Shown in pieces: positions 5,193 through 63,246 of a DNA stretch of 64,000 nt. The DNA lies in assembly GCA_031763025.1 (NCBI GenBank), contig JASSKH010000001.1, positions 13,481,659 through 13,545,658 on the forward strand, read 5' to 3'. Below the pieces are notes generated by a model. That model saw nothing but the letters and a program-made list of their open reading frames with translations, did not search any database and had not been told where the DNA came from. The position numbers and the translations under genes were made by a program. This stretch comes from Macrocystis pyrifera (Eukaryota > Sar > Phaeophyceae > Laminariales > Laminariaceae). Numbering within the stretch: position 1 is the first letter of the stretch; each line of letters opens with the position of its first letter.

Positions 5193-5246
<54 letters not shown>

Positions 5247-13061: not shown

Positions 13062-25509
<12,448 letters not shown>

Positions 25510-25538: not shown

Positions 25539-25581
<43 letters not shown>

Positions 25582-38194: not shown

Positions 38195-39188
38195 TACATA
38201 TATTATATATGGGTTGGGTTGGCGTCGGTTGGCAACGACACTGTAAAACATGCCGCTCACTACGTGAGCTAGACATCCAGGGTACCGTTTTTTTTTTTTT
38301 TTTTTTTTTTTTGGCGGTCGCCCACAGCTGGTCGTCTAGTTAGATCATTTGTGCGAGGTAAAGAACCTTTACTCTGCACAAGGGAATTGATCGTATCACG
38401 TAGTGTTCAAGGTAAGACACCCAAGAGGCAGTTACACAGTACTCCCATTGCTGTCTCTGGAAGTGGCCACACCGGAAATTAAACTAACTCATTGAAGCTG
38501 TCATCCATATCCAAGTCCGCCTAACAAGCGGCTCTTAGTAGGATGCAGCTCACCCCTTCATGTGACTCGCCGGACACCCCACGGCGCTTCGCGCTTGGTG
38601 CAAGCAATATCTGCCTGGTCGGTGAAAACCCGACATGCTCCGTCCCGGCATTGTAGGGATGCGAGGGTCTATGGTCATACGACTACGGCCATGCATGAGA
38701 TCGAGTACATCTCTCCTATCGAGTACACCCCCCCCCCCCTCCCTACATCCCTCTCCGTCTCGAAGGGGATCGTGGTCAATGGTCAAATGCCCAAGGCAAG
38801 CAACAAATGAGTACGCCCCCGCCCCCCCCCCCTCCCCGAATCGCCTCAAAACCTCCTCCCGATTCCTTGCCCCAATCATCCCAACCGAACAACTAGCAGA
38901 CATGATGATTCACCCCTGAAACATAACTCTGCCCCCGCCGCCCTCCAATATACAACAAGACACCCCCACCCCCCCCGTCCCCGTTTCTCTCCCCCCAACC
39001 AGAGCACTATTCACCAAACCCCACTGCCCGCCCCAAACATAACCCCGCCCCCTCCGGTGGCGAACGAACCAAACAAAAAATACCGCCGCCCCGCCCCGCC
39101 CCCCGCCTCGCCCGTCCCCCTGCCCAGCCCCCCCCCAAACCAAACCAAACCACAAGAAACCCCCCAATCCCTAACAAAAAAGGAAACG

Positions 39189-39265: not shown

Positions 39266-39301
<36 letters not shown>

Positions 39302-42300
39302 TCCGGCCACCTGATAGATGACCCCGCCCCCGCCGGCAGCGAACAAAAACGTCTCGGCCGGGTCCGCGGTGATCGTCCTCAGGAAGACAGGACAAGTCGC
39401 CGACAGGAGGAGACGCCCCGATCCCGAGTCCCAGACGCGCGCCGTCCGGTCGAGCGAGCAGGTGTACACCCTCCCGCCGCCTTTGGCCGCGAAGATACCC
39501 GTCACCGGGAGGGAGTGCTGGGACGCCGTCCATGTGGTGGGGAAGGAGGAGTGGCGGCCGCCGCCGCTACTGCTACTGGTGCCGGCACCGCCACCCTGGG
39601 GTTTCAGTAAAAAACAGAGGCGTGCGTGCGTGCGCGCAAAAAAAGAAAAACGAAAAAAGGGAATACATACGGGTATATATGTTAATCGGAATGTATTTAA
39701 AGCAAACCACAGCACAATGGAGTAATAGATCGAAAAAAAAATAGGCCTTATGGACTCCCACTCCCGTCGTAGACAAAACACTTGGGAAATTAGAGCCAGA
39801 TGTTGGTTTCTGTATGTAACCGTAACAGTGCAGCACTAAAAACGGTTACTAATTAATTGAGCATCCCCTTTATGGTAGGCCTTAAGGGCTGCACTCCCAT
39901 TGTAGACACGAAACACTTGGAATTACAGTCATATTTTTGTTTCTGCACGTAGCTGTAAGGTAAGGTTCGCACCCTGATGGGTCAAGGGCGAATAAAAAAA
40001 ACGTTCAAGAAGATCAAGAAGAACCGACGACGGGAAATCACTGCTGTGGTAGGGTTGACATAAAAAAAAGAACACTGCTGTGGTAGTGTTGATATAAAAA
40101 AATAATAGTCTACAGCAGCTGTCGCTCGCTTGAAACCCGCGCATCGCTGCCACCGCCACCGCTTCTAGAGCTACCGCCAGCGCCGCCCTGAACTGAGGAG
40201 AGGTGCGGCAAGGCTAAACCCACAATACGAAAGCAACGACAACACCAACAACAACAATCAACACCAACGCCAACAACAACAACAACACCAACATCAACAA
40301 GAGGCGGCGGATCGCATTGTGATCAGATTAAAGACGACGCACACAGACACATCAAACACACACAAACTTTGGAGCACAACGAAGCACCATAATACACAGA
40401 CAAAACACCTCCAACCCTTCGGCACCGACACAACATCACAAAATCATGCACATACACACACATTCTGCGCGCACACGCAGATCGCCAACACCACCACCCA
40501 GCACTAAAAAAATATTTTTCAGTTCGGTACCTTGAACCCGGCGCCTCCTTCCGGGTCAACCGCGGCTAGCATGTTCCAGGCGGACACCATCGCGTCCTCC
40601 CCGCCGGAGTACAGAAAGCAGCCGTCGGGACTGAAGGCCAGCGCCGACACCGCCTACGGAGGAGGAACGAACCATGCGCAGTTGGTCGTGAAAAAAAACA
40701 ATCAAACGCAACACAACACAACACAACACAACACAACACAACACAACACAACACAACACAACACAACACAACACAACACAACACAACACAACACAACACA
40801 ACACGACACAACACAGCACAAATCAGCCCACCCGGCCCCGCCCCAACCCGCCCCAACCCATGCCACATCACACGAATACACACGCATGAAAACAAAACGA
40901 CACAGATTCGATACCGTTCATCATGGCCATGCCCCATCGCCATCGTCATCATCGTTCTCATAAAAATTATCATCATGTGCGGGGAACGACCCCTACCGTG
41001 CACGCCTTTCAAAATACTAGGAGACCTCATGACTGACCGACTTGACTGACCGGCTTGACTGACCGGCCCCGACATTAGATCTAGTATAATGAGGCCACAA
41101 GAGGCCTTGACGCGTCCGAAGTGACTCGTCTCCTACGTACGGCATGGATAGTACATTTGCCCGTCAGCCAACGCTTTTTACGCGCTCGAACTGTAGACTC
41201 TTATTCGCACCGTGCCCCTCCGAGCGCGCTAGACAGCTCTCGAAACACACGAGGCCTGTTCGTATAATAGTATAGCAAACAGTATAATTAGACCTTGCCC
41301 CAGCTTCGACAAAACAAGCTGAAATTTGTACCATAAAGGTTTTCGTATTTTTGCCTGTATGTATGTATACCAGGTATGTAAAGAAACAGAGAAGGGGGGG
41401 GGGGGGGTGTAATGAATCAATCACTTTCGCCAAAGAGAGACGGAACACATTTGATTGCAAACGCCTACCCTAAATAACCAGATACACCCAAAACACCAGC
41501 CGCCTAGGGAATTCTCGGAATGAAGACTTAAAGAGGACTTTAGTGTAGGCTACCAACCATGTCGTCGAGGCTGGACCAAGTTTCAGACACACAGAGCACA
41601 TCCCACTCCACTCCACTCCACCCCATCCCCCTCCCACCCCATCCAATCACATCTCCTCCCATCCCAGCCCGTCCCACCCCACCACGCCATCCAATCACAT
41701 CCCATATCATCCCATCCCATCCCATCCCATCCCATCCCATCCCATCCCATCCCATCCCATCCCATCCAATGACATGACATCTCATCCCATCCCGCCCCAG
41801 CCCATCCCATCACATCTTACCTTGTAGTGGGCATCCCAAGCGTGCAGCAGTGCGCCGCTCGCGACCTCCCAGAGGTACACTCTCCCCGACAACCCCCCCC
41901 CTGCACACAGCCACCCGTCGTCTGCGTGCATGCGTTCAAGCGGGGGGGGGGGGGCGACGATAAACGATTGGAAGACGAACCAAGAGGGGGAGGGGAGGGG
42001 TACTGATTACCATGCATGGCTATAGTCGAATGACCATAGACCCTCGCGTCCCTACAATGCCGGGACGGATCACGTCGGCTTTTCACCAACCAGACAGACA
42101 TTGCCTGCACCAAGCGCGAAATGCCGTGAGGTGTTGAGCGAGTCGCACCAAGGGCGAGCTGCATCTCACTGAGAACCGCTTTCGAGGCGGATTTTTTTGC
42201 ATACCTGGTATGGATGACGGCGTCAATGAAGGGGGGGAGGGGTGTAATGATGCTGTATACCTGGTATTTTGTAGCGATGCTGGGTCCAGCTGATAGCGAT

Positions 42301-45949: not shown

Positions 45950-48900
45950 ATGGGATCTTTCGGGCTCCCGGCCATTAACGAGGAAGAGCTGGTGGCTGCC
46001 TCCGTGGTTTGCGTGCTGACCGGCGTCGCTCTGTGCTTCTTCTCTTACAGGTAAGCGAGAGACAACGGAGACAACCTGGAGGGGCGATGGGCCGAAAAAC
46101 TGCAAGAAGAAAACAGAAAACATGTTTATGTTTGTCTTGAGAAAACTATTGCATGAACGTTTTGGGGAGACAAACTACTTGGAATTAGTATAGTTTTTGC
46201 GTGGTGGTGAAAAAAAAAAGAGACCCTCGTTCGCTCGCGAGGAGGAGGTCGGTTCTCTGAACGAGTATGTACCAGATACAGTATAATGGTGCTTGCTGCT
46301 CACGCACGTCGATTTTCTGTTTCGACGGAAGCAAAGGAACGAAGAACCAGTCAGCGCGTCCATCCGCTCGTCTTGTATTCGTGTTCAAGGTACCTGGTAT
46401 ATCGCATGTCTGCCTCTTCTTCCCGTGTGTTTCGTCGTTTCCTTCGAGCGAAGTGACGTTCTCGGCTCTCTCTCTGTCTCTCTCGTGGAACGGTCATGTT
46501 CCCACCCGCCCACTACGTAGGCGCTTGGTGTGTGAAGAAAAGGAATTTGCCCTGCGAGGCGCCAGGGAGCATTCTGTCATACTACATCATGTATCATTCT
46601 ATCGTGCTGCTGCATGCACACAAACAGCAAGTTCGTTTGTGATCTACTTTACATGTGTCACGACTTGTGAACCACCAACCATGCACACTGATCCTGAATA
46701 TCAGTATGTTGTGTGACTTCACGTAGCCATCTATCTACGTGCTTACCTGCCAGGTATATATGCTCTCTCTGTTGCCCTCTATCTGTGATCGTCGTTTCTG
46801 CGTGTTGCCGCGCCCGATGATGGTCCATGTGATCCCCCCCCCCCCCCCGGCCGGGGGGAAAAAAACGTATTGTGTGCGAGCACCGAAATATTTGGAGGTG
46901 TTTCTATTGTTACGAGTCGGAACGGGCGCTCCGTCTCGGAAGGGACGCACGCGTGGTCAAAGGTCAAAGGATTAATACGAAGCACAGCGAGCAACAAAAA
47001 TGAGTTCGCCCCCCTTCCCGCTGCCTCCGAGCGAGGGCTCCTAGCCACGCACCACTGCGCAGCTATATGCATGATGCCTACCTCCGGTTGCAAGTCACAG
47101 CTATCTTCCAGCTATCAAAGTTCCTACGAAAGTACAGCAGTAGTACGTACCTCAGACCTGGTACACAACGGAATGAACGATGGCAGACCAAAAATGAGCA
47201 TCATGTATGATCCCACCAGAGTCCCCTTTTCAGTAGTATTTTATGAAATTTTGAAATAATCTTATTCTGTGCGAGAGAAATTGTACACTACTACCGTTTC
47301 ATGAGAGCGTCATGTGCGGGGCCGGCGAGCGACAACCCTGCGAGTAAGTAAGCAGCTTTTAGTGGCCCGCGCTTGGGACTCGCTTCGCGGGACTACTTAC
47401 TACTACTACTGCTGCTGACGAAAGAAGCATACGTACAGCAAACATATCGTACATGCATCTATTTACCCGGTGTATAGAGCAGTACTTACATTTATTTACA
47501 TGCAGACATCGAAATATCGAAAATACACAGAATTCTTGGCTCGGGACGGTTCACGAAGCCATGTCATGAATGTCGACTCCAAACTCTTCAGCACGTACAT
47601 CAGAGCTCCATAAATATTACACCCACCAGTACTTCCGCACCAGCCTGAGATAATAGTGCTCGGCAGATATTATTTACGTTACAATAATAATATTATTAAA
47701 TAATAGTATATACCAGGCAACCGTAGATTACATACGAAGTCTGTACGTACGTCCACACTCGTCAGCAGGAATTACTACTATTTGGGAATCGGCGCGCTCT
47801 ACACTACTCGTACATAGTATAATAGTGGCCCCTCATGTGCCAGCCGGAAATGCCGGCACTTCATGTAGCTATTGCTGTTACTATTGCTATTGCTATTGCT
47901 ATTGCTATTGCTATTGCTATTGCTATTGCTATTCGGCATATTGCCACTACAGCAGTATTAACTGTTAACACTGCTTGTTCACATCTGCGTTAAACGGGTT
48001 CACTGGCACTAAAGCGGGGCAACCGTTACTGCTCAACCTTCACCATAGACTATAGAAGGAGATCTCTTTTGTACCAGACATATATTTATTGCTGCTGTAC
48101 GTGTACATTAATAGTCTAACAATATCTTGCGACTGCTTCCACAGTTCTTATTACCAATTGGCGAGATGATGCGCCTATCTTATTTTGACAGCGAGCGCCA
48201 GAAGAAACAGGGACTTCCTTTCGAGTAACCCGGTGTCGGGATGTCGTAATGCGTGTATCGAAACTATTGATAAAATGATAGTGTTGGATATTGTGTCGAG
48301 ACCGTTCATATATCGAAAAATGCCGATATATCGGTATATCGTATCGAGCGTGTTCTGCCACTTGCGCCGTGACGCAGCCAAAAACAAAGAAACGAGGGCC
48401 CAAGTTGATGTTGTTCTTGTTGTTTCCCGCCAATGCGCGCACACAAGTTGACGACAGTAGAAAAATCTCCTGCTTTTCCGCGAGTTCCCGCATCAATAGC
48501 GACAGCGTCGTGCCAGGTATACTTACATGTTTACTGTAAATCTAGGCGAGCAGTACCATAAGACTGGCTTTCTTAGTTACTGAAGTACCTGGACCAGGAG
48601 ACCTATAAGATGATAAGAAACAGGAAAACTGGCCTATAGGCTGGATTTCTTATTTGAGAATATGGGTGCTTTATTTCCACGCTAAAATCAGTGTAATAGC
48701 GACCTGCAAATTTCCGTTTTTTTTGCTGCAAATTCGTACTACAGCAGCAAGCAGTAGTAGTTTCTTGCAACTTTATTTCGTCCCCATCAGTTTCGAAAAA
48801 ATCAGCCTTGAAAACTTGTCGGAGGTCGGAGGGGATGCCTTGCCGCTATTATTAACGATATATTGATTTATATCATATGTGAAGGTGTTACCTACTGAGC

Positions 48901-51294
48901 TTTAGGGGTAAAAGATCGATCGATCACCCACCCCAGGGCAACCCTTACAACACATGAAAAACAACACAACAGCTGTGAGATGATATTACGGGGGACCATA
49001 GTAAATAGGACCAAACATTGTTAGCAAAAATATGGAAATATATGGGTGTTTGTTTGCACCGTAGGTCCTATTAACTATGGTCCCCCGCTGTGAGATGGAG
49101 GATTTCGTCGAAGCTCATATTTACAAGCTGTGTGTGATGTTACGGAGGGCCATGGTAAATAGGACCAAATACTTGTAGTAAAAATATGGAAATATATGGG
49201 TGTTTGTGTGCACCGTAGGTAGTATTAACTATGTTCCCCCGTAATAGTTTGGATCGCGCGTACGTCGGGTTTGATGTTTTATATGGTCTCATTCATGCCG
49301 GGCATACAAGTCCGTATACGAGGAAGCCAAAATCTGAGGCTGCGGAATTCGAGAGGTGTATGTATAGAGCAGCAGTGCCGGTTGCCGCTATATCTCAAGC
49401 GTGTTACACGGCATGGTGATCACTCGTCATCACACACTTCAGGTTATACTGCTGTACAAGCACTATTAATAATCGTTTATTGTTGTTGCTGTTGTAGCTG
49501 TTGCCGCCACACACAGCCCTTCGTAGTCTACCACTCTGTACCGAAATATATGTACCTTTTGTATATTACTAATAATAGTCAATTAAACCGTTCCTTATAG
49601 TTCAAGACATATTGGTAGTCAGCATCCGCCGGGCCAGTTGAGCTTCCATCTCCTTCTCTCCACCATGCGGCCGCGATCACCTCGACTACAGCAGCAGCAG
49701 CAGCAGTAGCGTGTATCTTGCGAGTACTCCTATACCACAAGCACCACCGGCAGCAGGAGCAGCAGCAGCGGCAGTACCCTCTGGTCGTGGCGGTTGTGAG
49801 CTGTGACGGGTGCACAGCTGGCGTGCGGTGGGGCGGTACTACCACAGTAGTAATCTGTGTGTTTCTCGCGACCCGGCGGTGGCGATCGCTCGTGGCTGCT
49901 TCGTTGGGGAAACCGTCGACGACGAGTGTTTGTTCGTTGTGGTTGTTCCAGTACTCCGTATACTGCTACAAAAAAACATGGATGTGAAAGGCTGACGCGG
50001 AGTCGCGACGCCTGCCCCTCCCAGTTCATTGATTATCAGCTGTACATGGCCAACGGCCGCCTGTGTTCTGCTTGGAAGATACACCCAATATCAAAGTACC
50101 GTACTGCCTGTACACAGATCCTGCACAACCTGCACAACATACGTACATGATCTATATCTTAACGGCAGGTTAGGATCTAAAGAATGTAAATAAAGCAGAT
50201 AACGGCAGGTTGGTGAGATCTAAAGGATCTACATACAGCGGTAGACCGCGATCCGCCCGGCGCTTTGGTTTTTGGTGCGACCTGTGAGGCTCGTTGTTGT
50301 AACCGTTGTACCCGCTGAAACCGTCTGTAACTGTAACAAAGCGAAGTGACTGCGCGTTCGGCTACCACACCTGGTGCCTGCCTATGTATGCTGGTGTCAC
50401 TCTCGAGATATGAACGTATGAATCGCTGCTGTGTGGTTCTACGCTGACTCCTTCGCTCGTCGGCTGGCTGCCCAAAAGATTGTCACTGCTATGTAAAACC
50501 GCGTGTCCGGGGTACGTCAGTCAGTGTACACCAGTGACACAACAGCAGTAATAATATTACAGGGGACCAAGCAAACAGGACCTACGGTAACAAAAAAGCC
50601 TATTCCAGGTGTATTTTTCTATTTTTAACCAACAATATTTGGTTCTATTTACTATGGTCCCCCGTAATAGTAGCCGTGTTCGATTACGAAAGATAAACCG
50701 CTCACAAAGCTAAACACTGCAGTCGAGAAAGAACCATCTATAGAAAGCAGCAGACAGAGGCGGATTCGGGCGGGCTTGGTCATCCCCGAGGGGTGATTGA
50801 CGTTATAGTTGGAAGGTCGAATTGGGCCCAAGACGTATGCGCTTCTTTCGTTGGGTTATCAAGAGATAAAACCACCGAGCTGAGCAGTCAGCGCTGACTG
50901 CTGTGGTGGTGCGCTCTTTTTATGTGTGTTTCCTTCAGCTTCCGACCTTCTGGTCGACGAGTGTTATTTGTTGGTGGTTCTTCTCTCCACATTTTTGTCC
51001 CTTTCTCTCGAAAAGAAACGAACTCGGTGGGATGTTTGAACGCTGGCGTGTTTTTGTAGCTCAGTGGTTGAAAACAATGGTATATATATATGTATATATC
51101 TATATGTTCCCTTGGGCTGAGTTCGCCCTCACAACGGTTGATCAGAGCCTTTAGTCGGCGCTCTGACTGACTGCTGTATACAGCAGTAAACGAGCGCATA
51201 GCAAGCAGTGTACTACGCACACGGCGTTTTGCCAGGGGTATAGTAGGGCAATCCATCTGGTGCTACTGCTGGAGTGTGGCGAAATTGCTTTCCG

Positions 51295-51331
<37 letters not shown>

Positions 51332-53194
51332 CGCAGCCGCGTGTGCTCGAAAGCAAACAGAAACAACCCAACAGGGCAACAAAGCAACAGAGCAACGAAG
51401 CAACAGCACATCAGAGGGACTACTATTGAAGTAAGCAGCAGCAGCAGCAGCAGAGCAAAGCAAAGCGAGGGAGAAATAATAGAAGAGCGAAATCAACTAT
51501 TTACTGCCCAGGTATCAAGAAGAAAGCGGCCACCAAGATGAAGACAGTAATCCCAACAAAAAAGCGAAAGCAGGAACAGTCAGTTAGTAGTAAGGCGTCA
51601 AATAATGAAGGCAAGAAAGGAGAACGCTAGTTTAAAAACCGACAACTTTAACCATCGCAAGAGAACACGCGCAAAGAAAAAGGCAACTGATAAAAGAAAA
51701 ACCTTCGAGTAAGCAACAAGGCAGGGCAAGAACGAGCAACGAAAAAACCGCTGTTACGGGGGACCATAGTAAATAGGACCAAATATTGTTAGTAAAAATA
51801 GGTAAATATATAGTTTTTTTTTTATGTGTACACCATAGGTCCTATTAACTATGGTCCCCCGTAATATTACTCCCACAAAAATGAGGCAACATCCATTCCC
51901 AGAAAAGAACGCGCAGCAAAGCAAGCAGAAAGAACCTCCAGAGGAATCAACAAGGGCGGAGCAAGAATCATCTTGGACCGAAACCAACACCCCCCGTTTC
52001 CCGTGTCCCCTATCCCCCCTGTTCTGTATGCTCGGCGTTGGTGCATCGTCCCGCATCGAACTCCCCCCCGTGCACTTATGCTTGCCCTCTTTTTTCCAGG
52101 AGTCCAGTGGCGGTCGTTTCCAGCTTGGGGGGCCTTCTCTTCGGGCTTTTCTGCATCAATGAGATCGTGCCGCAGTTCGGTGAGAGATGATTCAAGATTA
52201 TATAGACCGCAGGAATATTCTCAGCGGTTTCCGCTACAGCAGTGCCAGTGGCAGCGGCAGCGGCAGCGGCGGTGTTGATTGGCGGAAACCGTTGAAACGG
52301 CGGAGTAGTAGTTGTGGCAGCAGTGGGGTTGCTGCCCGGTTTTTTCGATGTGCCGAGCCGAGATCGATTGTACTCACACTGGCACGTACGTATGTGAACG
52401 TGTTTTTGCAAGTCTTGTCTACGATGTTTCCTGACCCCTGCGTACTCCCCCCCCCCATACCCCACCCCCACCTCGCATCCCAACCGTCCCTCACGATCTG
52501 GTCAATAAGTAAACTGCGTAGCCAGGCCAGAGGAGCAAATCGAGGGAAAGCATTTCCCCCCCCCCCCCATCAATATGCAAGAAAATCCGCCTCAAAAGCG
52601 GTTCCTAGCAGGATGCACCTCACCCTTCATGCGACTCGCCCAACACCTCACGGTGCTTCGCGCTTGGTACAGGCAATGTCTGCCTGGTAGGTGAAAACCC
52701 CACATTTTCCGTCCCGGCATTGTAGGGATGCGAGAGTCATTGGTCATACGACTACGACCATGCATGATATGAGTACAGCCCCTCCCCCCCCGCGCCGTGC
52801 CGGACATACGACTACGGCCATGCATGACATGGGTGCACCCCCCCCCCCCAACCGAGAGTAGAACTCACATAGTAGGAGAATGTGAAATATACAAGGAGGA
52901 ACGGGATGTGTTAGAAGAGGAGATGAGGAAAATAGACGAATGTGACATGGAGGAGTTTGATACAATGAATAGCAGCGAGAAAACGATCGCTGTCCTAGGA
53001 GATAGATGGTGGCCACAGGAGGCCAAACAGGAAGGGGAAATGATTAGCAAAAAGTTTCTATGTAATGTATGGAAACAACGTAATGAGCGCCCAATTGTTG
53101 GAGGTGTCTCTATTAGGAGTAGGAACGGTGCTCCGTCTCGAAAGGGATGCATGGTCAATGGTCAAATGACTAAGGCAAGCAACAAATGAGTACG

Positions 53195-53232
<38 letters not shown>

Positions 53233-56200
53233 TAACACAGTGCTTGAATTTCAATTGCAAGTTTTTATTTCAATGTCCGTTTTCAACTTCGATTTCAAAG
53301 CTATATGTACATTATATTTCAAAATTCGACTACGATTCCATTTTTTTTTTATATACCTCAGTTTCAAATCCCAATTTCCAAGGTCGATTTCAACTTTGAA
53401 TAACAATTGAATTCAAGACCAACGAAAGAGGGACACACGATGTTTTGAAGTTTTGTTTCAAAACTATGGCTTTCAAGGAAACAGCTTTTAGCTGGAGGTA
53501 TTTCTCGTGCCGCCGCTGTGGGAAAAGAGGGGAACGAAAAATGTTTGATTTTTTTTTTCTTGTTGCTATTCCATGCACTTTTATCTGACTTATATCCGCA
53601 TGAGTCCAATGACTTGAAACATGGAAGGTGCTATGACAATATTACACCAACAATTAATGCGGTCCCCCTTTGAATGACTCTTCTGACTCCTTACCGACGT
53701 TTTGAAAAAGGGTGGCATTTACTCACGCGTGACCACTCGAATCTATTTATTTTTCGCTCGGCTGTGCGCGGCGCAATTTTTTTTCCGCTCTCGTCGTAAA
53801 TGGTCAACACGACGATACCAAATCAGCAGCTCATGCGACGATAGACCTTCGATCTCGACATAGACTCACCCCACGGCTTAACCCGCTCGGTGTCGGGCAA
53901 GGCCAACGAATGTGATTGGCGGCCTCGAAGACACCAGGTAGATCTGAGGTCTATAGAGGGGGCGAGCGAGCGAGCTTGACGGCGGCGTCTTACGTACGCT
54001 CTTCTCCCAAACCTGAAAAAAAAAAACACAAAAAAAACTCTACGTACCTGGTATTTTGTTCCGTCCGAGAGGGATCGAGAATTTTTATCCTGTCCGTCTT
54101 CTGCACACCAGCATCGGCCAAACGTTTTTTTTTTAAATCACATACTCCTGGCCAGCGCCCGCCACATGTCACCGGTCATTGTATGAACACTGCTGTGACC
54201 ATAGGGTCTGTATTCTACCTACAGCAGTACTGGTATATATACATATTTGTATACGTTTCCCCTTCAATACACCACGTGAAAAACAAAATTACCTACAGCA
54301 GTACGCGTACGTACGCGTCGCATTATTTTTATGCGCAAGATAAAAGCACCGCAAAGACTTTTTTTGTTTTTCTCCTTTCCGTAGTTTTTTTTTTTTTGAC
54401 AAGGCGACTATTAATAGTAGATATGTATGTAGTATGTTTCTCCTTGACTATTAGTGTTTATAGTAAAAAATGTTGAAAATATATATGTACCGATTTTATA
54501 TATATACATATATATATATGTACGTACGCACTCGTGCAGCTTTTTTCTCTTTGTTCTATTCCTCCTTTTCACGTGTGTGTTTTATTTTGAATTTTTGTTC
54601 ACAAGGCGATGACGGCATCCTGTGCCTCATGGCGGGCGCCTGGGTCTCCGCCATCGGCGCCGTCGTGGCCTGCACCGTCGCGGTCCTCCTCACCTGGGCC
54701 TCCGTGGGGACCTGCCTCGGCTGCCTCGCGGCCATCTTCCTCGTGCTGCTGGACGGAGGCGTGATTATCAGGGCGCAGGCGGAGATATGGGTGCTGTTCG
54801 GGGCGCTGATCGCTGCTGGCACCGCCTACTCCTGGTACCAGGTGGGATGTTGGGGGCGGGGTTGGGGTGTTGATGACCGTTGGCATCGCGAACCCCTTCT
54901 TCCAAGTGGGGTGGGAAGTGGGGGGTGGGGGTGGGGGGTGGGGGGTGACTCTACACACGTTAGGGGGCGAAACGTGTTCGCCCTAAGTGAGCAGGAGTTG
55001 GGATCTCCCCGAACGGTTATGCTGCGCGAATTGCCAAAATGCGCGCGCGAGAGGTCTCTCCTTTTCGAGCAGGAAACCCGTGCAGCTATGAGTAGCGTCA
55101 CCGCGGTGCTTGTCGGTCGGCTCGCGGACCACTCGGTAGGTCTCAGTCGTCTTCGGTTTCGCGCGCGGCTGCGCCTTCTTCGCCGGCGAACGCTTATGTG
55201 GGTTCATGAGGCGCAACAGTGGGAGAAGACGGCGTAGCAAATTCTATGAAGAGTTGGGATGCCCTACGTACACCGTAGCTGTGCGATCAGAGCTGCAGCA
55301 ATAGTTGTGCACCCAATTCGTACGCTACATACGGCACGTAGCTCCACGGCAACATTGCATGCCTCGCCCCATCTCAGCTGATACGCTTGGTAGGGAGTGG
55401 AGTCGAGTGGGGTGGGGTGGGATGGGATGGCGTTGGATGGTGAATTGGGGGCGGAGTGGAGTTGGGGGGGATGGAGTGAAGTTGGGTGGGATGGGGTAGT
55501 AGGGTCGGGGAGGAGTGGAGTTGGCATGGGGATGGATGGGGTGGGGGTGGGGGTGGGAGTGGGAGTGGGGGTGTGTGGTCGATCGAATTTTCAAACATAC
55601 AAAAAAAAACGCCCGATGCTTTCGCGGCAAAGTAAAAAAAATTATTACGGGTAGGGGTGGGTTTAGAGTTTCGTAATGTATAAAGTAGTGTTTCGAGGCA
55701 GTTTTCGATTTTTTTTTTTCCTTCGAACACTTGTGGAACCACACGTGGGCCACTCACCAAAAACCCCGATCTACACTTTGTCCCGGGTACAGCTTCATAC
55801 ACGGTGCGGTAAAAAATGCGGCTGGCTCATCCCCCGTGCCGTGCCATGATTGCTTTGCTTGTTCACTGATGATGTTGCTGTTACGGGAGACCATAGTAAA
55901 TAGGACCAAATACTGCTATTAATAGTAAATATAGGGAAACTTATAGGTTTTTGTGTGTACCGTAGGTCCTCGTATTTACTACGGTCCCCCGTAATAGTGT
56001 ACCGTAGGTCCTCGTATTTACTGCGGTCCCCCGTAATAGTGCACCGTAGGTCCTATCTACGACGGTCCCCCGCAATAGTTTGCTTGCTGTCTTTGTTACA
56101 ATTTCGCTGTTTATTAAGCCCTACTTTTAGAACTGCAGTGCGGTTTTGGAGACAATCCGCTCAAATTCTTGACTTAAGTTTGTCACCCAAACGGGGCTGA

Positions 56201-56397
56201 CTGCGGTTTGTCCTGAAAGGGTTTCACATTGTTTTGGCGTGCTCTTTAGCTTACGGGGGACCATAGTAAATAGGACCAAATATTGTTAGTAAAAATAGGT
56301 AAATATATAGGTTTTTATTTATACCATAGGTCCTATTAACTATGGACCCCCGTAATAGTTTTCTTTCGCGTGTGCGTGTGTGTTCTCTGTGTGTGTG

Positions 56398-56428
<31 letters not shown>

Positions 56429-59400
56429 TTTGTCCTACGTATCCACAACGAACGGCTGAAGGTCAGCATGATCGCGATAACGCCTCTCTTACGTTGCTGA
56501 CGTACGTGCGTATCGACTCGTCCAGAAAATGTACGGATCTCTTGCATGTTAATATTGTATCCCAAGGGCAAACATTATATTGCGAGACGACAGAGTGGTA
56601 ATTATGTCACGCTGCTGGGTTGATTTTTTTTTTCGTGCGTTTGTTCGTGTTTTTCTTGTTCGGTGGTCTGTATTGCGTCCAACATCAAGCAGTTGAAGCC
56701 CAGCATGATCATCATGACGTCGTCGGCGGGTGCTCTGCTCATGGCCTGCGGGACAGACCTCGCCCTCGACCGGAGCATGATCAAGGCGGTGGGACACATC
56801 CTGCAGATGAGGCAAGTTGTCCTGCCCGGCCGTCCACAATCTTCAGCGCCGACTTCGATGAGGGAAGGGTACTATTACGGGGGACCATAGTAAATAGGAC
56901 CATTTTTTTTAGTAAAAATGGGAAAATATATAGGTTTTTGTCTGTACCGTAGGTCCTATTTACTATGACCCTCCGTATTATCACGAGGGACCAAAGTAAT
57001 TGATCAGGACCAAATATGCGTATTACGGGGGTCCATAGTTAACGGGACCTAATTTTGTTAGTAAAAAAATAGGTAAATATATTCCAGGTGTTACGGGGGT
57101 CCATAGTTAACAGGACCAAATATTGTTAGTAAAAATACCTAAATATATAGGTTTTTATGTATGCCATAGGTCCTGTTAACTATAGACCCCCGTAATAGTT
57201 TTTTTATGCATACCATAGGTCCTATTAACTATGGACCCCCGTAATAGTAAAAACACTGTAATATATAGGTTTTTGTGTGTATGATTGATCCTGATCACTA
57301 TTAATTTTGTCCTCTGTAGTACAAAACAGTTTTTGTGTTACAAATACGTGGCAGGTTACTGCTTGCATTGTTGCAGCGGCACGGGTACTGCGGCTGGTAC
57401 GAACGAGCACCTCTCGGGGCTTGTTGCGCGCACGACGTTCCGTGTTGGTTCACGAGTGGTCTTCTCTTGATGTTTTTGTTGTTGTTGGTTTTTTGTTTTT
57501 GTTTTTGCTTTTGTTTTTGTTTTTGTTTTTCTCTTGTGTGTTTTGCATCCGAACGAGCGACGGTCCCGGTTTTTGTTCTTGTTTTTTTTTTTTTTTTTTT
57601 TTTTTTTGGTGCTATTTGGTCTTGACTCTTCCTCTCGCTTGTAGAGTCGTTGTTGATGGAGCGAACAAATGGCTGATACAAGCTTTTTTCTCGCGACAAA
57701 CACGGAGGCACGAACGGTGGTGGTGGAGGGGAGGAGAGCCTGCTGCTGTGTGACCCAATGGTTGATCTGAGTTACATCCATAGTAAGAGGGGGAGAGAGA
57801 AAAAAAAAAAAGGGGCGACGATGATAAACGGGAAGAGCAAAAAAAAAACACACACACACACACACACACACCTAAAGTTTCTAAAGGTCCTCACGTGACC
57901 TTAAAGGGAGCTCCGTACCTCAACCCAAAAACTGATTATGAGAAAAAAAAGGAAATACGGGGCAGACCGACGAACAGCCCCAGAGCCTGTTGTAATAGGT
58001 GTATCACCAGAGTAAGTTTTGTGACGCAGTATGCCAACAATAATGCGTCAAGGGGTCCGGTCGGTGGGAGATAGTCTGGCCAAAACGTCCTATTACGGGG
58101 GTCCATAGTTAATAGGACCTATGGTATACATAAAAACCTATCTGTTTACCTATTTTTTACTAACGATATTTGGTCCTATTTACTATGGACCCCCGTAATA
58201 GTTCCTCTACGAGTGTAGCAGCACGCGTCGATTGGCGGTGGTAATGGTGGTGGTGGTGGTGGTGGTGGTGGTGGTGGTGGTGGTGGTGGTGGTGGCAATG
58301 GTGGTGATGCTATCATATTAATGTTGGTTGGCGCGGGGCTGTTGTACGAAGTTTTAGCATGCTTTTCTTTGTTCCTGTGTCACGGATCTTGTTCTCGCTC
58401 CCTGGTCTTGTTGTTCTCCCTGCTGCTGGTGCTGTTGCTGCTGGTGCTGCTGGTGCTGCTGGTTAGTGGTGGTGGTGGTGGTGGTGGTGCAGGGTGGTGT
58501 GGGGGGGTGAGGGTGGTTGCTCTATCGTAAAACGATGATGCTGATGATGTATGCCATCTGTGTCCACGTCCACTCTTGAGTTGGTTGCTCATTTTTTCCG
58601 TCGTTTTTTCTTGCTTGCTCTTGCTTGCTCGTAGCTGTCGCTTGTTGTTGCTCTCGTTGCTCTTGCTGCTCCCTGTTCCCCTTTGCTCTTTGCTCTTGCT
58701 TCTTCTTCTGTTTTGTTTTGCGTTTTTTTGGCTCGGGCTGTTGACTTTACCTACGCTGTCCGTCGCTCCTGTGTCTTCATCCATCGTTTCCTCATTTTTG
58801 TTTTATTTTTTTTTATCGTGCTCAGCTTCGTTGCTTATCTTAACCCGTTCGCTACGCCATTCTCTTCGATTCTCTTCTCTTTTCTTCTTCTCGCTCTCTT
58901 CATTGGCTTCCGTCACCCAAATCGCCTCATTCAGCTGGGTGGAAACGAGACACTGCGCCTGGGGGGAGTGCCGGATGCCGATGTTGCTGGTCGAATGGGC
59001 CGTGCTTACCGTCATTGGCGTCGCCGTACAGGCAAGATGCTTAGAGACCGCGGTTTGACGCCCTTGACTGACCGCTCGCACGCACTTAAACTAGCATGTT
59101 CAGGTAATAGGCATCGCCGTACGGGCAAGACGCCATGATAGAAGACCGCGGTTTGACGCCCTTGGCTGACCGTCCCCATACTCTACAAGTAGTTGATTGT
59201 CCATGTTGGTGGTTGTTATCGGGGCGGCGTGGGGGAGCGGCAGGAGGAGGGGGGGTGGGGGGGGGGTACTCATTTGTTGCTTGCCTTAGTCATTTGACCA
59301 TTGACCGCGCATCCCTTTCGAGACGGAGGGTGGGGTCGGGATGGTGGTGGTGGTGGTGATGGTAAGGCAGGGTGAGACCGGCGGGGTGGCGGGAGGGGTC

Positions 59401-59899
59401 GACGAGTACGTGGGGGGGGGGAGTGCACTCGATAACATGCATGGCCGTAGTTGTATGACCATAAAAGCCACAAGAGAGCGAGGGGCGTCAGGCGTGCAGT
59501 GGGCGGATGGACTGGGGCATGTTTCCACCCCGGCACTTACTACTATTGTAGTAGCCCCACCGACCCTCACCCCCATGCTCGCCGAGGGACTTTTTTCTTC
59601 TGCACCGTCTTCCGGAGAACCAGTAAGAACCCCACCTACGGTTGTAAGAACCCCACCTACGGTTGTACGAAACTCCATACTGCATACAATCACAGGAGGT
59701 GGATGCTGTCAATATAGAGCTATTATTTTTTCCGAAAGCACTCAACCGCCTTCGACCTGGCGTACAACTCCCGCCGCACCTGTACCTTCAGCCTTTTCCG
59801 TGGTATCAAGGTAGTGAGCAGCGACCCTGACCTAGTGTCCCTCCCCCTTCTCCCCGCTTCCCACCCCTCCCGCTCCTCTCTCCATCCACCGTCCTGCCA

Positions 59900-59943
<44 letters not shown>

Positions 59944-60154
59944 TCTGTTCCGCCCACCACCCTCTGTTCCGTGTGGTCACTGCCCTACCAAAACGAAAAA
60001 CTAAAAACAAAAACCCAAAACCCAAACACCGAAAAAAAACATGTTGCTGCTTCTAACACTGCCCTTGAATAACAAACGAATCGAAATTAAAAAAAAAAAA
60101 TGACGTCAAAACTAAAAACTATAAACGGAAAACGGAAAACGAAAAACACTGCTA

Positions 60155-60186
<32 letters not shown>

Positions 60187-60769
60187 GGCTGCCACGTACC
60201 TACATATATACGATACGATACGATACGATACGATACGATACGATACACAGGGCCATGCTTCGGGCGTCCTGTCTCCTCTGGCCTTCTTCCAGCGCCTGGG
60301 GCTCCTCGGAAGCGTCAATCCCTACACCCGTGTCGGCGGCGCGGGCGGAAGCACGGCTTTCGCTGGTGCTGGTGCTGGTGCTGGCGCACCATCCTCTGCT
60401 CCCGCCGCGGGAGGCGCCGTGGGCGGCCGCGGGCTGGGTGGTGGTGGCATGGGGGACATTAACGCGGGTAGCGGCAGCGGGATGGCGGCGGCGATGGCGC
60501 TGGCGGCGGCGGCGGCGGGAGGAGTCAACGCCAGGGTGGCGGGGAAGAGGAAGACGTGGACGTACTCGGAGAACCACAACACGTGGAACTATTTCGATAT
60601 GGAGGCGTTGCCTAATGTCTTCTGCGCCAACAAGTGAGGGAGGGGGCGGGGGGGCGGGGTCTACGGTGATGCATCCAACGTACGATTGGGTTTCAAGTTT
60701 GGGTCGAACATGGCGCATGTCTGTACACTTGCGACTAGGTTGAAGTTCATGTGCGGCTCTAGGCTCTAT

Positions 60770-60842
<73 letters not shown>

Positions 60843-63032
60843 GGGAGGGGGCGGGAGAGGCCGGGGCGTGTTCATCTGTTGCTTGCCTTGGTAATTTCAC
60901 CATATACCACTCACTCCTTTCGAGACGAAGCGCTGCTTTCTACCCCTAATAGAGACGCCTCAAAACATGTTGGTGCTCATTACGTTGTTTCCTTATATGG
61001 GGGGAGGGGGGGGGTGTGTACTCGATAGGAGAGATGTACTCGATCTCATGCATGGCCGTAGTCGTATGACCATAGACCCTCGCATCCCTACAATGCCGGG
61101 ACGGAGCATGTCGGGTTTTCACCGACCAGGCAGGCATTGCTTGCACCAAGCGCGAAGCGCCGTGAGGTGTCCGGCGAGTCGCATGAAGGGTGAGCTGCAT
61201 CCCACTAAGAACCGCTTGTGAGGCGGACTTGCATATGGATGAGTTAGTTTAATTTCCGGTGTAGCTATGGGGGGAGGGGGGGGGGCGTGATGAAGGGCCG
61301 CCCGCTGCTGTCACTGCCACCGCGCGCTGCTGCTCTTGCTACTCTTACTGCTCTTGCCGCAATGCACTACCGATACTGCACTTTCTGTTGCTGCTGCCGC
61401 TGTTGACGCTACTACCGCTACTGCTGCTGCTGCTATTGTTGCTGCTATTGTTGCTGTTGTTACCGATGCCGCTCCTACTGCTGCTGCTGCTGCTGCGACT
61501 ATCGCTGCTACTGCCGCTACTGCCACCACTGTTACTGTTGTGTACTAGGGACGCGATTTTCATTGCTGCGGAGGCCCTGGCCAACACCTTCGGGTTCCAA
61601 GACGATAACGTGAGGAACCAGGTTGAGCACCTCCTGACCCTGCTGGCCAACCACCGCCGATACGCCAACGAGATGCCCGCCCTGTCCTTCGGGTGAGTGG
61701 TTCAACAGCAATAACCGCCAGCAACAGCAACAGCAACAGCAACAGTGACTACAGCAGTACCAAGAGTAAGCATAACAGTAAGCATGGCAATGACAATGTC
61801 CTTACTGCTAACAATATCTATAGCGTCAACAATAGCAGCATCAATAACGGTAGCAGTAACAACAGCGATAACAATAGCAATAACGCATACAACAGCATGA
61901 AAAACAACGACAACAGCAGTAACAATAACAGTAGCAATGATAATCACAGCAGCAACGACAAACAACAACCTTGATCGCTGTCGTCGTCGTTTGCCGTCGC
62001 TGCTGCGCTGTCGTTGCTGCTTGTTGCGTTTTTTGTTGTGTGTACATATTTGCCTATTTTTTGTCGTTTTTGTCGATTGTTTTCTGTTCACCGAAAAAAA
62101 AATATGCCAGAACTTGCCTGTCGTCGCCGTTGCCGTATTGCCCATTGCGAAACTGTTGCACTCCTTGGATAGATCAGACAGATCAGGCAGATCATGATCT
62201 ATCTGCAGATAGATAGATCATGATCTAGATGATCTAGTTCCTCACCTACCGTTGTGAGAGGTTGGCTGTGCAGGATCTGCCTTATAGGGCAGATCATCCA
62301 ATCCAGGGAACACGCGCTGCTGCAGATCATGCAGATTATTGATCGGCTCCCACCCGGCAACATCATGAACTATTAATAGATCATACATACAAGATCGGGA
62401 ATTGATCTATCCGTATGCCTTGAAAGATCTAGATCATCTCTTGGAAATGAATGGTCTGTCGATGATCTGTCTCCGAGGTGTGACCTGTTGTCGTCGCCTT
62501 TGTCGCTGTCGCCTGTTGAACAGTTGTTCGGCATACGCGAGTATTTCTGGTATACCTCACTGCATTGCTTGCGTGTGATACCTACGCGATGTGTCTATGT
62601 TGCTCCTCGTATTTGTTTTTTTGTTTGTTTTGGCTTTTGTCGTGTTTGTTTGTTTTTTTTGTAAAATTTATTGTACCGCTGTTGACCTCTTGCCTTCCTC
62701 GCTTTCCTTGTCCCTGCCTCGCCTTGCCTTGCCTTGCCTTGCCTTGCCTTGCCTTGCCTTGCCTTCCCTTGCCTTGTCCTTGCCTTGCCTTGCCTTGCCT
62801 TGCCTTGCCTTGCCTTGCCTCGCCTCGCCTCGCCTCGCCTCGCCTTGCCATGCCTTGCTCTCTTTTCAGAGAGGGCTCTCTCCCGCCGAAGTCCGCCGTG
62901 CACAGCCTCCACCGCAAGCTCTTCCTCAACTACAGGGACTGGTGCGAGTCCATGCGGGTCGCCCCGAACTTCATGCCCCTCCCTCTCCCTCAAACACTCG
63001 ACACGTACGGCAGCGGCACCGACAAGGCCGAG
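45950..63032 (+). CDS. Gene D: TMEM198-like (DUF4203) domain fused to 1,3-beta-glucan synthase N-terminus, 3' part off the right edge
   Basis: Exons: 45950-46050, 52100-52179, 54606-54841, 56693-56811, 58935-59031, 59739-59810, 60251-60633, 61549-61692, 62870-63032, continuing beyond the window. Every junction keeps phase (2/1, 1/2, 0, 2/1, 0, 0, 2/1, 2/1). The first six exons match TMEM198: VVCVLTGVALCFFSYR, VAVVSSLGGLLFGLFCIN, a long multi-helix exon (AIGAVVACTVAVLLTWASVG; IFLVLLDGGVIIRAQAEIWV), LKPSMIIMTSSAGALLMACG, MPMLLVEWAVLTVIGVAVQ, then a basic NSRRTCTFSLFRGIK like the TMEM198 tail. Next come a Gly/Ala linker, TWTYSENHNTWNYFDM, and the FKS1/callose-synthase N-terminal region: FGFQDDNVRNQVEHLLTLLA and KSAVHSLHRKLFLNYRDWC. 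The GT48 catalytic domain should lie downstream. Glucan synthase makes 1,3-beta-glucan from UDP-glucose at a membrane. Two donors are GC. The start could be an upstream exon joined at 45844. Confidence 0.84.
46880..47016 (+). mobile_element. LINE 3' end
   Basis: GAAATATTTGGAGGTGTTTC, CTCCGTCTCGGAAGGGACGC, GCAACAAAAATGAGTTCGCC. Confidence 0.62.
47876..47935. repeat. (TTGCTA)n hexamer array
   Basis: About nine units of ATTGCT. Confidence 0.93.
48986..49088 (+). mobile_element. MITE-1 copy, first of a close pair
   Basis: Interior TATATGGGTGTTTGTTTGCA is shared with the copy at 49140 and not with most others. Confidence 0.85.
49140..49244 (+). mobile_element. MITE-1 copy, second of a close pair
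   Basis: Shares the GGGTGTTTGTGTGCACC interior with the copy at 48986, 52 bp away, so probably a local duplicate. Confidence 0.83.
50138..50245. repeat. Short GATCTA / AACGGCAGGTT direct repeat
   Basis: TAACGGCAGGTTAGGATCTAAAG and a second TAACGGCAGGTTGGTGAGATC about 40 bp on, related to the GATC-unit family. Confidence 0.5.
50557..50667 (-). mobile_element. MITE-1 copy with a small CCAGG insertion
   Basis: Diverged left end TTACAGGGGACCAAGCAAAC. The interior CCTATATATTT of other copies reads CCTATTCCAGGTGTATTT here. Confidence 0.82.
51754..51864 (+). mobile_element. MITE-1 copy
   Basis: TTACGGGGGACCATAGTAAA at the left, TTAACTATGGTCCCCCGTAA at the right. Just upstream of gene D exon 52100. 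Confidence 0.88.
52560..52790 (+). mobile_element. SINE-like element (S12)
   Basis: CATCAATATGCAAGAAAATC to GCATGATATGAGTACAG and a C run. A second family 3' end (GGCCATGCATGACATGGGTG) follows at 52801-52846. Confidence 0.77.
52850..53231 (+). mobile_element. LINE 3' fragment with poly(C) tail
   Basis: The open frame (SRTHIVGECEIYKEERD, then [16 protein letters not shown] and KKFLCNVWKQRNERP) ends KASNK-TGA. The TGA lies in AACAAATGAGTACG, directly before a C run of about 36 nt, so there is almost no 3' UTR. The HIVxEC part is the end of the C-terminal zinc knuckle of non-LTR reverse transcriptases. Truncated at the 5' end. Confidence 0.75.
55380..55575. repeat. G-rich GGGGTGGGAT degenerate array
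   Basis: G-rich on plus with units GGTGGGATGGG and GTGGGGGTGG. Many G-tracts of three or more could form quadruplexes in the gene D transcript. Confidence 0.75.
55881..55994 (+). mobile_element. MITE-1 copy followed by extra right arms
   Basis: A full copy, then two more right-arm units at about 55999-56036 and 56041-56078, each ending GGTCCCCCG(T/C)AATAGT. Confidence 0.82.
56119..56223. mobile_element. P95 palindromic element, diverged
   Basis: Arms TTTAGAACTGCAGTGCGGTT and CCCAAACGGGGCTGACTGCG. Confidence 0.65.
56251..56355 (+). mobile_element. MITE-1 copy
   Basis: TTACGGGGGACCATAGTAAA at the left, TTAACTATGGACCCCCGTAA at the right. Confidence 0.88.
56875..56979 (+). mobile_element. MITE-1 copy just after gene D exon 56693
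   Basis: Starts 64 bp after the GC donor at 56812. Right end TTTACTATGACCCTCCGTA. Confidence 0.85.
57023..57244 (+). mobile_element. Middle MITE-1 copy, host of a further copy
   Basis: Left arm TTACGGGGGTCCATAGTTAA to about 57090; right arm from 57196 ends GGACCCCCGTAA. Sits at a TA inside the older element. Confidence 0.8.
57091..57195 (+). mobile_element. Innermost MITE-1 copy
   Basis: Complete element with TTACGGGGGTCCATAGTTAA at the left and GACCCCCGTAA at the right, inside the copy at 57023-57244. Confidence 0.83.
57640..57835 (+). repeat. R200 dispersed repeat, copy 5
   Basis: TTTTTTCTCGCGACAAACAC, GGTGGTGGTGGAGGGGAGG, and GACCCAATGGTTGATCTGAG, followed by a GA/A-rich end. Lies in a gene D intron. 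A short trace of the same family is at about 42870-42912 (minus). Confidence 0.7.
58093..58198 (-). mobile_element. MITE-1 copy
   Basis: TA-flanked, TTACGGGGGTCCATAGTTAA at the left, TTACTATGGACCCCCGTAA at the right. Confidence 0.89.
58233..58300. repeat. (GGT)n microsatellite
   Basis: About 20 units, gene D intron. Confidence 0.93.
59258..59330 (-). mobile_element. LINE 3' end
   Basis: G run, GTACTCATTTGTTGCTTGCC, CGCATCCCTTTCGAGACGGA. Confidence 0.65.
59415..59470 (-). mobile_element. SINE-like element (S13), 3' end only
   Basis: G run, GTGCACTCGATAACATGCAT, GGCCGTAGTTGTATGACC. Confidence 0.6.
60205..60247. repeat. (CGATA)n array at a splice acceptor
   Basis: About eight units, ending 2-3 nt before the AG of the gene D linker exon. 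Confidence 0.9.
60251..60633 (+). CDS. Gene D linker exon
   Basis: Joins the membrane domain to the glucan-synthase domain. The AG at 60250 gives ASGVLSPLAFFQRLGLLGSV; an alternative AG at 60292 starts at RLGLLGS in the same frame (42 nt shorter). It has a Gly/Ala-rich middle, then KRKTWTYSENHNTWNYFDM. The donor AAGTGAGG leaves phase 2. The (CGATA)n array sits right at the first acceptor. Confidence 0.75.
60770..61000 (-). mobile_element. LINE 3' end with a 70-nt homopolymer tail
   Basis: A G run of about 70 nt (60771-60840), then GTGTTCATCTGTTGCTTGCC, CTCCTTTCGAGACGAAGCGC, AATAGAGACGCCTCAAAACA. Confidence 0.68.
61005..61270 (-). mobile_element. SINE-like element (S14)
   Basis: G run, GTACTCGATAGGAGAGATGT, body, ending at CCGGTGTAGC. 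Gene D intron. Confidence 0.8.
62165..62480. repeat. GATC-unit repeat cluster
   Basis: GATCAGACAGATCAGGCAGA, TCATGATCTATCTGCAGATA and further units, in a gene D intron. Confidence 0.65.
62720..62858. repeat. (CCTTG)n turning into (CCTCG)n
   Basis: Pentamer array of about 27 units, ending about 10 bp before gene D exon 62870. It may act as the polypyrimidine region. Confidence 0.93.
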
Positions 63033-63080: not shown

Positions 63081-63131
<51 letters not shown>

Positions 63132-63246
63132 ACTCGATAGGAGAGATGTACTCGATCTCATGCATGGCCGTAGTCGTATGACCATAGACCCTCGCATCCC
63201 TACAATGCCGGGACGGAGCATGTCGGGTTTTCACCCGACCAGGCAG
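63081..63246 (-). mobile_element. SINE-like element (S15), 3' part with 50-nt tail
   Basis: A G run of about 50 nt, then GTACTCGATAGGAGAGATGT to TCGGGTTTTCACCCGACCAG. Starts about 50 bp after the gene D donor at 63032. Confidence 0.77.

Follow-up and report, generated by a model that had tools for sequence, protein, structure and literature searches.

Eight exons on the forward strand of a 64,000-nucleotide stretch of Macrocystis pyrifera DNA, hereafter the window, encode a TM7S3/TM198 membrane domain and, downstream of it, what is likely the N-terminal region of a GT48 1,3-beta-glucan synthase. Joined together, the exons (E1 to E8, Table 1) form one open frame with no stops, 425 codons long when E4 ends at 56788 and 434 when it ends at 56815, and all eight have GT/AG sites. 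We lean slightly towards reading them as the 5′ part of a single TM198-GT48 fusion gene, which is the most economical, though not a proven, model of E1 to E8.

Table 1 Positions in the window of the eight exons and of the repeat copy that follows E4
Feature	Position	Strand	Description
Exon E1	45950-46050	+	Beginning of the TM198-like domain (start codon, N-terminus, TM helix 1); donor CAG/GTAAGC
Exon E2	52100-52179	+	TM helix 2
Exon E3	54606-54841	+	TM helices 3-5, read by eye
Exon E4	56693 to 56788, 56811 or 56815	+	TM helix 6
MITE-like repeat copy	56871-56964	+	Just after E4; contains the E4 read-through stop
Candidate linking exon E5	59739-59810	+	24 codons, basic, phase 0 at both borders; coding-like
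Exon E6	60251-60633	+	Gly/Ala-rich linker, then start of GT48-like N-terminal region; may begin at 60293
Exon E7	61549-61692	+	GT48/FKS-like FGFQDDNVRNQVEHLLTLLAN stretch
Exon E8	62870-63032	+	GT48-like N-terminal region continued (KLFLNYRDWC); ends on possible donor

Exons E1 to E4 encode a TM7S3/TM198 domain

In a Pfam profile search, joined E1-E4 matched PF13886 (TM7S3_TM198) at 33.9 bits (E 3.2e-8) with E4 taken to 56788 and at 34.3 bits (E 2.4e-8) with E4 taken to the last full codon before 56811, against a curated cut-off of 29.2 bits. None of nine shuffled versions of E1-E4 (five shuffled within 12-residue blocks, which keeps the hydropathy pattern, and four within exons) matched any Pfam family at E up to 1, and PDB sequences, searched by phmmer with the TM198 part as query, gave chance-level matches only. 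E3 had the top coding score among the seven scored exons (E2-E8). Hydropathy values of the TM198 part were read by eye as six helices, which we take to stand in TMEM198 order.

The alignment spans positions 2-155 or 2-156 of the 199 in PF13886, and across models the match ends between 155 and 163, or at 169 with E5 attached at 56788. The initial annotation had matched six exons to the whole TMEM198/DUF4203 fold, basic tail included; four were found, and the profile match stops before helix 7. Since helix 7 was not found, the whole fold is not confirmed and the domain is filed as TM198-like and incomplete. E1-E4 thus resemble TMEM198 and TM7SF3 in scoring above the cut-off over positions 2-156, but differ from them in the missing seventh helix and in apparently running on into a glucan synthase.

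Three donors could close E4, scored here with a generic consensus that was typed by hand and not trained on Macrocystis pyrifera. E5 fits in phase with one of the two better ones, GCG/GTGGGA at 56789 (score 5.4), while the other, GAG/GCAAGT at 56812 (4.7), loses the frame with E5 at 59739 and gives two stops; CAA/GTTGTC at 56816 also fits E5 in phase but is very weak (-2.4). The proposal that the exons follow with matching phases and need no stop or start codon between them therefore stands for the 56789 donor or the weak 56816 donor, and fails for the GCAAGT donor. Without splicing, E4 reads on to a stop at 56888-56890.

A hydrophobic, TM-helix-like frame lies on the plus strand of the E4-E5 intron (58827-58938), in a T/C-rich stretch with a good acceptor (6.8). 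One gene could run from E4 to E6 through other exons than E5, for example a helix-7 exon from 58826 spliced off the GC donor; this frame matches the phase of that GCAAGT donor and would carry the alignment to position 192 of 199 in PF13886. Adding the exon lowered the profile score from 34.3 to 32.7 bits, and models with this stretch scored 32.3 and 32.7 bits compared with 33.9-38.3 for all models without it. The stretch scores below zero for coding and has a GC3 of 0.50; the phase-0 donors that would lead from it to E5 score -2.5 and -3.1. The frame is probably non-coding, the helix-7 exon was rejected, and a path of this kind seems very unlikely to us.

Exons E6 to E8 likely encode a GT48 N-terminal region

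E6, E7 and E8 join in phase. E7 shares the stretch FGFQ-x-D-x-x-x-N-x-x-x-H-x-x-x-LL with the N-terminal region of GSC2, which we take to be a fungal FKS1 homologue; the E7 motif presumably has the plant-type GT48 form, and NYxxWC, to which NYRDWC in E8 may be compared, is in our understanding a GT48 feature of the continuation. The closest known GT48 1,3-beta-glucan (callose) synthases are FKS1/GSC2, plant callose synthases and stramenopile laminarin-type synthases. When a long query was searched against PDB, the only matches at E up to 1 were two GSC2 sequences (residues 190-226, E 0.38). A trimmed query again placed GSC2 first, over 36 residues and at an E of 0.11 that is not significant alone, followed by interleukin-1 alpha at E of about 1. 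A further PDB search, seeded with an alignment containing a GSC2 row, was circular and is not counted as evidence. Some 40 residues carry the GT48 assignment, and no Pfam model scored above its cut-off for E6-E8, those listed (TBX2-3_RD and CSF-1) having E-values of 0.09-0.8. The motif in E7 and GSC2 as best PDB match, the latter at E-values of only 0.38 and 0.11, point weakly to the FKS1 N-terminal region named in the initial annotation; judged by sequence resemblance, E6-E8 are likely a GT48 N-terminal region.

Because E8 has no stop and ends on a possible donor, the gene should extend past the window. Exons for FKS1_dom1 (PF14288) and for the catalytic Glucan_synthase domain (PF02364) would fall beyond 64000, outside it. 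From other GT48 synthases a fused protein would differ in its extra N-terminal multi-helix module, with the catalytic domain lying outside the window.

A profile scan of viral contigs for relatives gave 27 stretches that matched a pattern, none of them confirmed. The DNA pattern for FGFQxDNxxNQ occurred in five stretches of genome contigs and three of viral contigs, and all eight, once translated, were unrelated by eye. The searched collections consist of prokaryotes and viruses, in which few or no GT48 proteins are expected, so this absence of relatives says little.

A candidate exon, E5, may link the two parts

E5 has a GC3 of 0.79, compared with 0.87 in the trained exons. Of 2000 dinucleotide shuffles, 11 equalled or bettered its coding score, as did 2.3% of 2000 stop-free intron windows; the scoring model was trained on 277 codons of the E-exons themselves (near-identical sets across scans). 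No rival on acceptor, donor and coding score together was found on the plus strand of eight intron and gap stretches at a protein entropy above 3.4, the thresholds of the scan being E5's own values; with the entropy filter off, GTG-repeat pseudo-exons outscored E5 (24.0 vs 13.9). A longer E5 starting at 59720 was rejected: its frame is open with the GC donor, but the acceptor scores -7.3 and the added codons are not coding-like.

Attaching E5 raised the PF13886 score to 37.1 bits with E4 ending at 56788 and to 38.3 bits with E4 ending at 56815. Nine shuffled E5 tails on the 56788 model scored 35.4-40.1 bits, four of them reaching 37.1 and two exceeding 38.3. The gain is no greater than that from shuffled tails, E5 therefore has no homology support from this profile, and we do not regard it as a piece of the TM198 fold.

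One gene or two

E5 and E6 meet in phase 0 and are separated by 440 bases. The acceptor before 60251 is weak (-3.5). A stronger one (7.0) precedes 60293, likewise in phase 0, and E6 may in fact begin there. Its frame runs open from 60125, with the first in-frame ATG at 60449. Within it, 60251-60346 is coding-like, its score being reached by 39 of 2000 shuffles and by 0.8% of stop-free intron windows, and the 126 bases upstream of E6 have a coding score of -44 bits. If the stretch ahead of 60449 is coding, the lack of an ATG there calls for an exon further upstream, and among coding-like candidates E5 lies nearest. Since E5 and 60251-60346 are both coding-like, join in phase 0, lack an in-frame ATG and lie 440 bases apart, the fusion is the most economical model.

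The same stretch of DNA also fits two neighbouring genes on one strand, a TM198-like gene ending at 56888 (via E4) or at 60054 (via E5) and a separate GT48 gene whose start is the ATG at 60449 or lies in a small, unseen exon somewhere from 56.9 to 60.2 kb. We consider this arrangement a serious possibility, somewhat less probable than the fusion. An end through E4 would use the open read-through, but the stop at 56888 sits in the MITE-like copy and the protein would be left without helix 7. An end through E5 finds support in the E5 frame, which is open from 59718, without an ATG, on to a stop at 60054-60056, and in a coding-segment scan that runs from 59745 to 59984 (24.8 bits), past the E5 donor, with the next segment, that of E6, starting only at 60401. 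The read-through itself (59811-60053) scores -11.3 bits, a value reached by only 4% of stop-free intron windows of that length but also by 520 of 2000 shuffles, and it would cross a 39-base C run (59904-59942).

For the start of a separate GT48 gene, the ATG at 60449 lies in frame ahead of the GT48 motif, and 60251-60448 as a whole is indistinguishable from its own shuffles (753 of 2000 as high), which we put down to its being mostly Gly/Ala-rich linker. From 60347 to 60550 the coding score was 19.7 on the minus strand vs 10.6 on the plus strand. Phase-0 ATG-to-GT candidates for a first exon number 165 in 56816-59810 and four in 59811-60250. All four in the gap encode low-complexity, Pro-, Cys- or Lys-rich peptides and were rejected, and the coding-like 60251-60346, in need of an upstream exon, likewise argues against a start at 60449.

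Spacing bears on both models. In Ectocarpus, the average 3′UTR is given as 845 bp, and short intergenic regions are also reported (PMC6337836). The E5-E6 gap is shorter than that average, which we count in favour of the fusion; the short intergenic regions speak for two genes, and if the TM198 gene ends at E4, the space to E6 is more than 3 kb.

Repeats, homopolymers and other genes in the window

A very abundant MITE-like repeat of about 90-115 bases (for example 56251-56365) has the inverted ends TACGGGGG(A/T)CCATAGT(A/T)AA, for which the 64 kb hold 37 matches with up to two mismatches vs a mean of 0 in 100 shuffles. A second family, ATGCATGGCCGTAGTCGTATGACCAT, has 15 matches with up to three mismatches (again vs a mean of 0 in 100 shuffles), with copies for example at 61048-61073, 63160-63185 and 38671-38696. 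Three of its copies come shortly after long G runs (3051-3069, 25539-25578 and 63081-63130), as if the element ended in a homopolymer.

Homopolymers of G or C include 60770-60841 (72 bases), 5194-5246 (53), 63081-63130 (50) and 59904-59942 (39), along with four others of 40-45 bases, and may reflect either real expansion or an effect of assembly. Assemblies can break at such runs, here of up to 72 bases, and at repeats, of which there are many around the exons; the two domains could in principle have been brought together by mis-assembly or in a decayed copy. Against this, the eight exons can be read in one stop-free frame and have GT/AG sites, and we consider such an artefact extremely improbable.

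On the minus strand, 39269-40653 contains parts of two WD40 exons that, when joined, aligned end to end with WD repeat-containing protein 18 (PDB 8fl2; E 6.2e-19, residues 2-121 to 124-242). Other WD40 repeat proteins rank above 8fl2 by E-value (2ymu, 5.3e-34) but have shorter best stretches, and the locus is probably a WDR18/Ipi3-like gene, as judged from these alignments. A plus-strand ORF at 25267-25473 has a partial PUB-domain-like match (PF09409, E 0.00042) whose 20.6 bits fall short of the curated cut-off (34.3). Neither the Rfam nor the tRNA scan of the whole window gave a match.

Comparison with known systems

The initial annotation knew of no described TMEM198-GT48 fusion. This agrees with the open-licence PMC literature, in which we found no link of TMEM198 to callose synthase or glucan and nothing on DUF4203; a literature search on composite genes in brown algae gave nothing relevant. 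GT48 fused to another multi-helix domain has already been published for oomycetes, and a TM198 partner, if real, would be new. According to PMC11302233, one group of 1,3-beta-glucan synthases in oomycetes has an MFS sugar transporter domain at the C-terminus, which the authors call unique to oomycete synthases and for which they suggest a role in extrusion. A beta-glucan synthase-transporter fusion is described across Pseudofungi in PMC5795050, whose authors do not exclude an operon-like arrangement. Like these proteins of Saprolegnia, Phytophthora and Hyphochytrium (PMC11302233, PMC5795050), the M. pyrifera model pairs GT48 with a second multi-helix membrane domain. Unlike them, as far as these sources describe theirs, it has a TM198-like domain at the N-terminus and not an MFS sugar transporter at the C-terminus, the 3′ part of the gene lying outside the window.

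Two further reports concern the partners separately. For the diatom Phaeodactylum, a GT48 is described whose part in making storage beta-glucan has been shown functionally (PMC7965971). TMEM198 is presented, with reference to Liang et al., as a scaffold in the membrane by which CK1 is recruited to LRP6, probably via transmembrane contacts (PMC3278829).

Possible role of a TM198-GT48 protein

If E1-E8 belong to one gene, the predicted protein would run from a TM198-like module of at least six helices through a short basic segment (E5) and a Gly/Ala-rich linker into the GT48 cytosolic N-terminal region, with the catalytic part encoded outside the window. We infer the join, the topology and the entire regulatory role. 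With six helices, both ends of the module would lie on the same side of the membrane.

By analogy with TMEM198, which brings the kinase CK1 to a partner in the membrane, the module may anchor and position the synthase and act as a scaffold for a regulator. During glucan synthesis from UDP-glucose and extrusion, the N-terminus of the synthase would be kept at the membrane, where a kinase or targeting partner could be brought in and phosphorylation or access controlled. Such positioning or scaffolding is the most likely role if this is one protein. Alternatively, the extra helices could sit beside the glucan channel, akin to the extrusion role proposed for the oomycete MFS domain.

To our knowledge, the placement and regulation of callose and laminarin synthases in algae are poorly understood, and we know of almost no described role for TMEM198-like proteins outside animals. 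It is possible, but doubtful, that the locus represents a lineage-wide class of GT48 enzymes with an N-terminal TM198-like module in their membrane machinery, serving as kinase scaffold or as helices beside the glucan channel. Next to the oomycete MFS fusions, this would be the second case in which a glucan synthase has become coupled, independently, to a multi-helix partner. With a natural fusion, TM198-like proteins and beta-glucan synthesis would be linked in one protein, which would suggest that proteins of the TM198 type also take part in beta-glucan synthesis in other settings.
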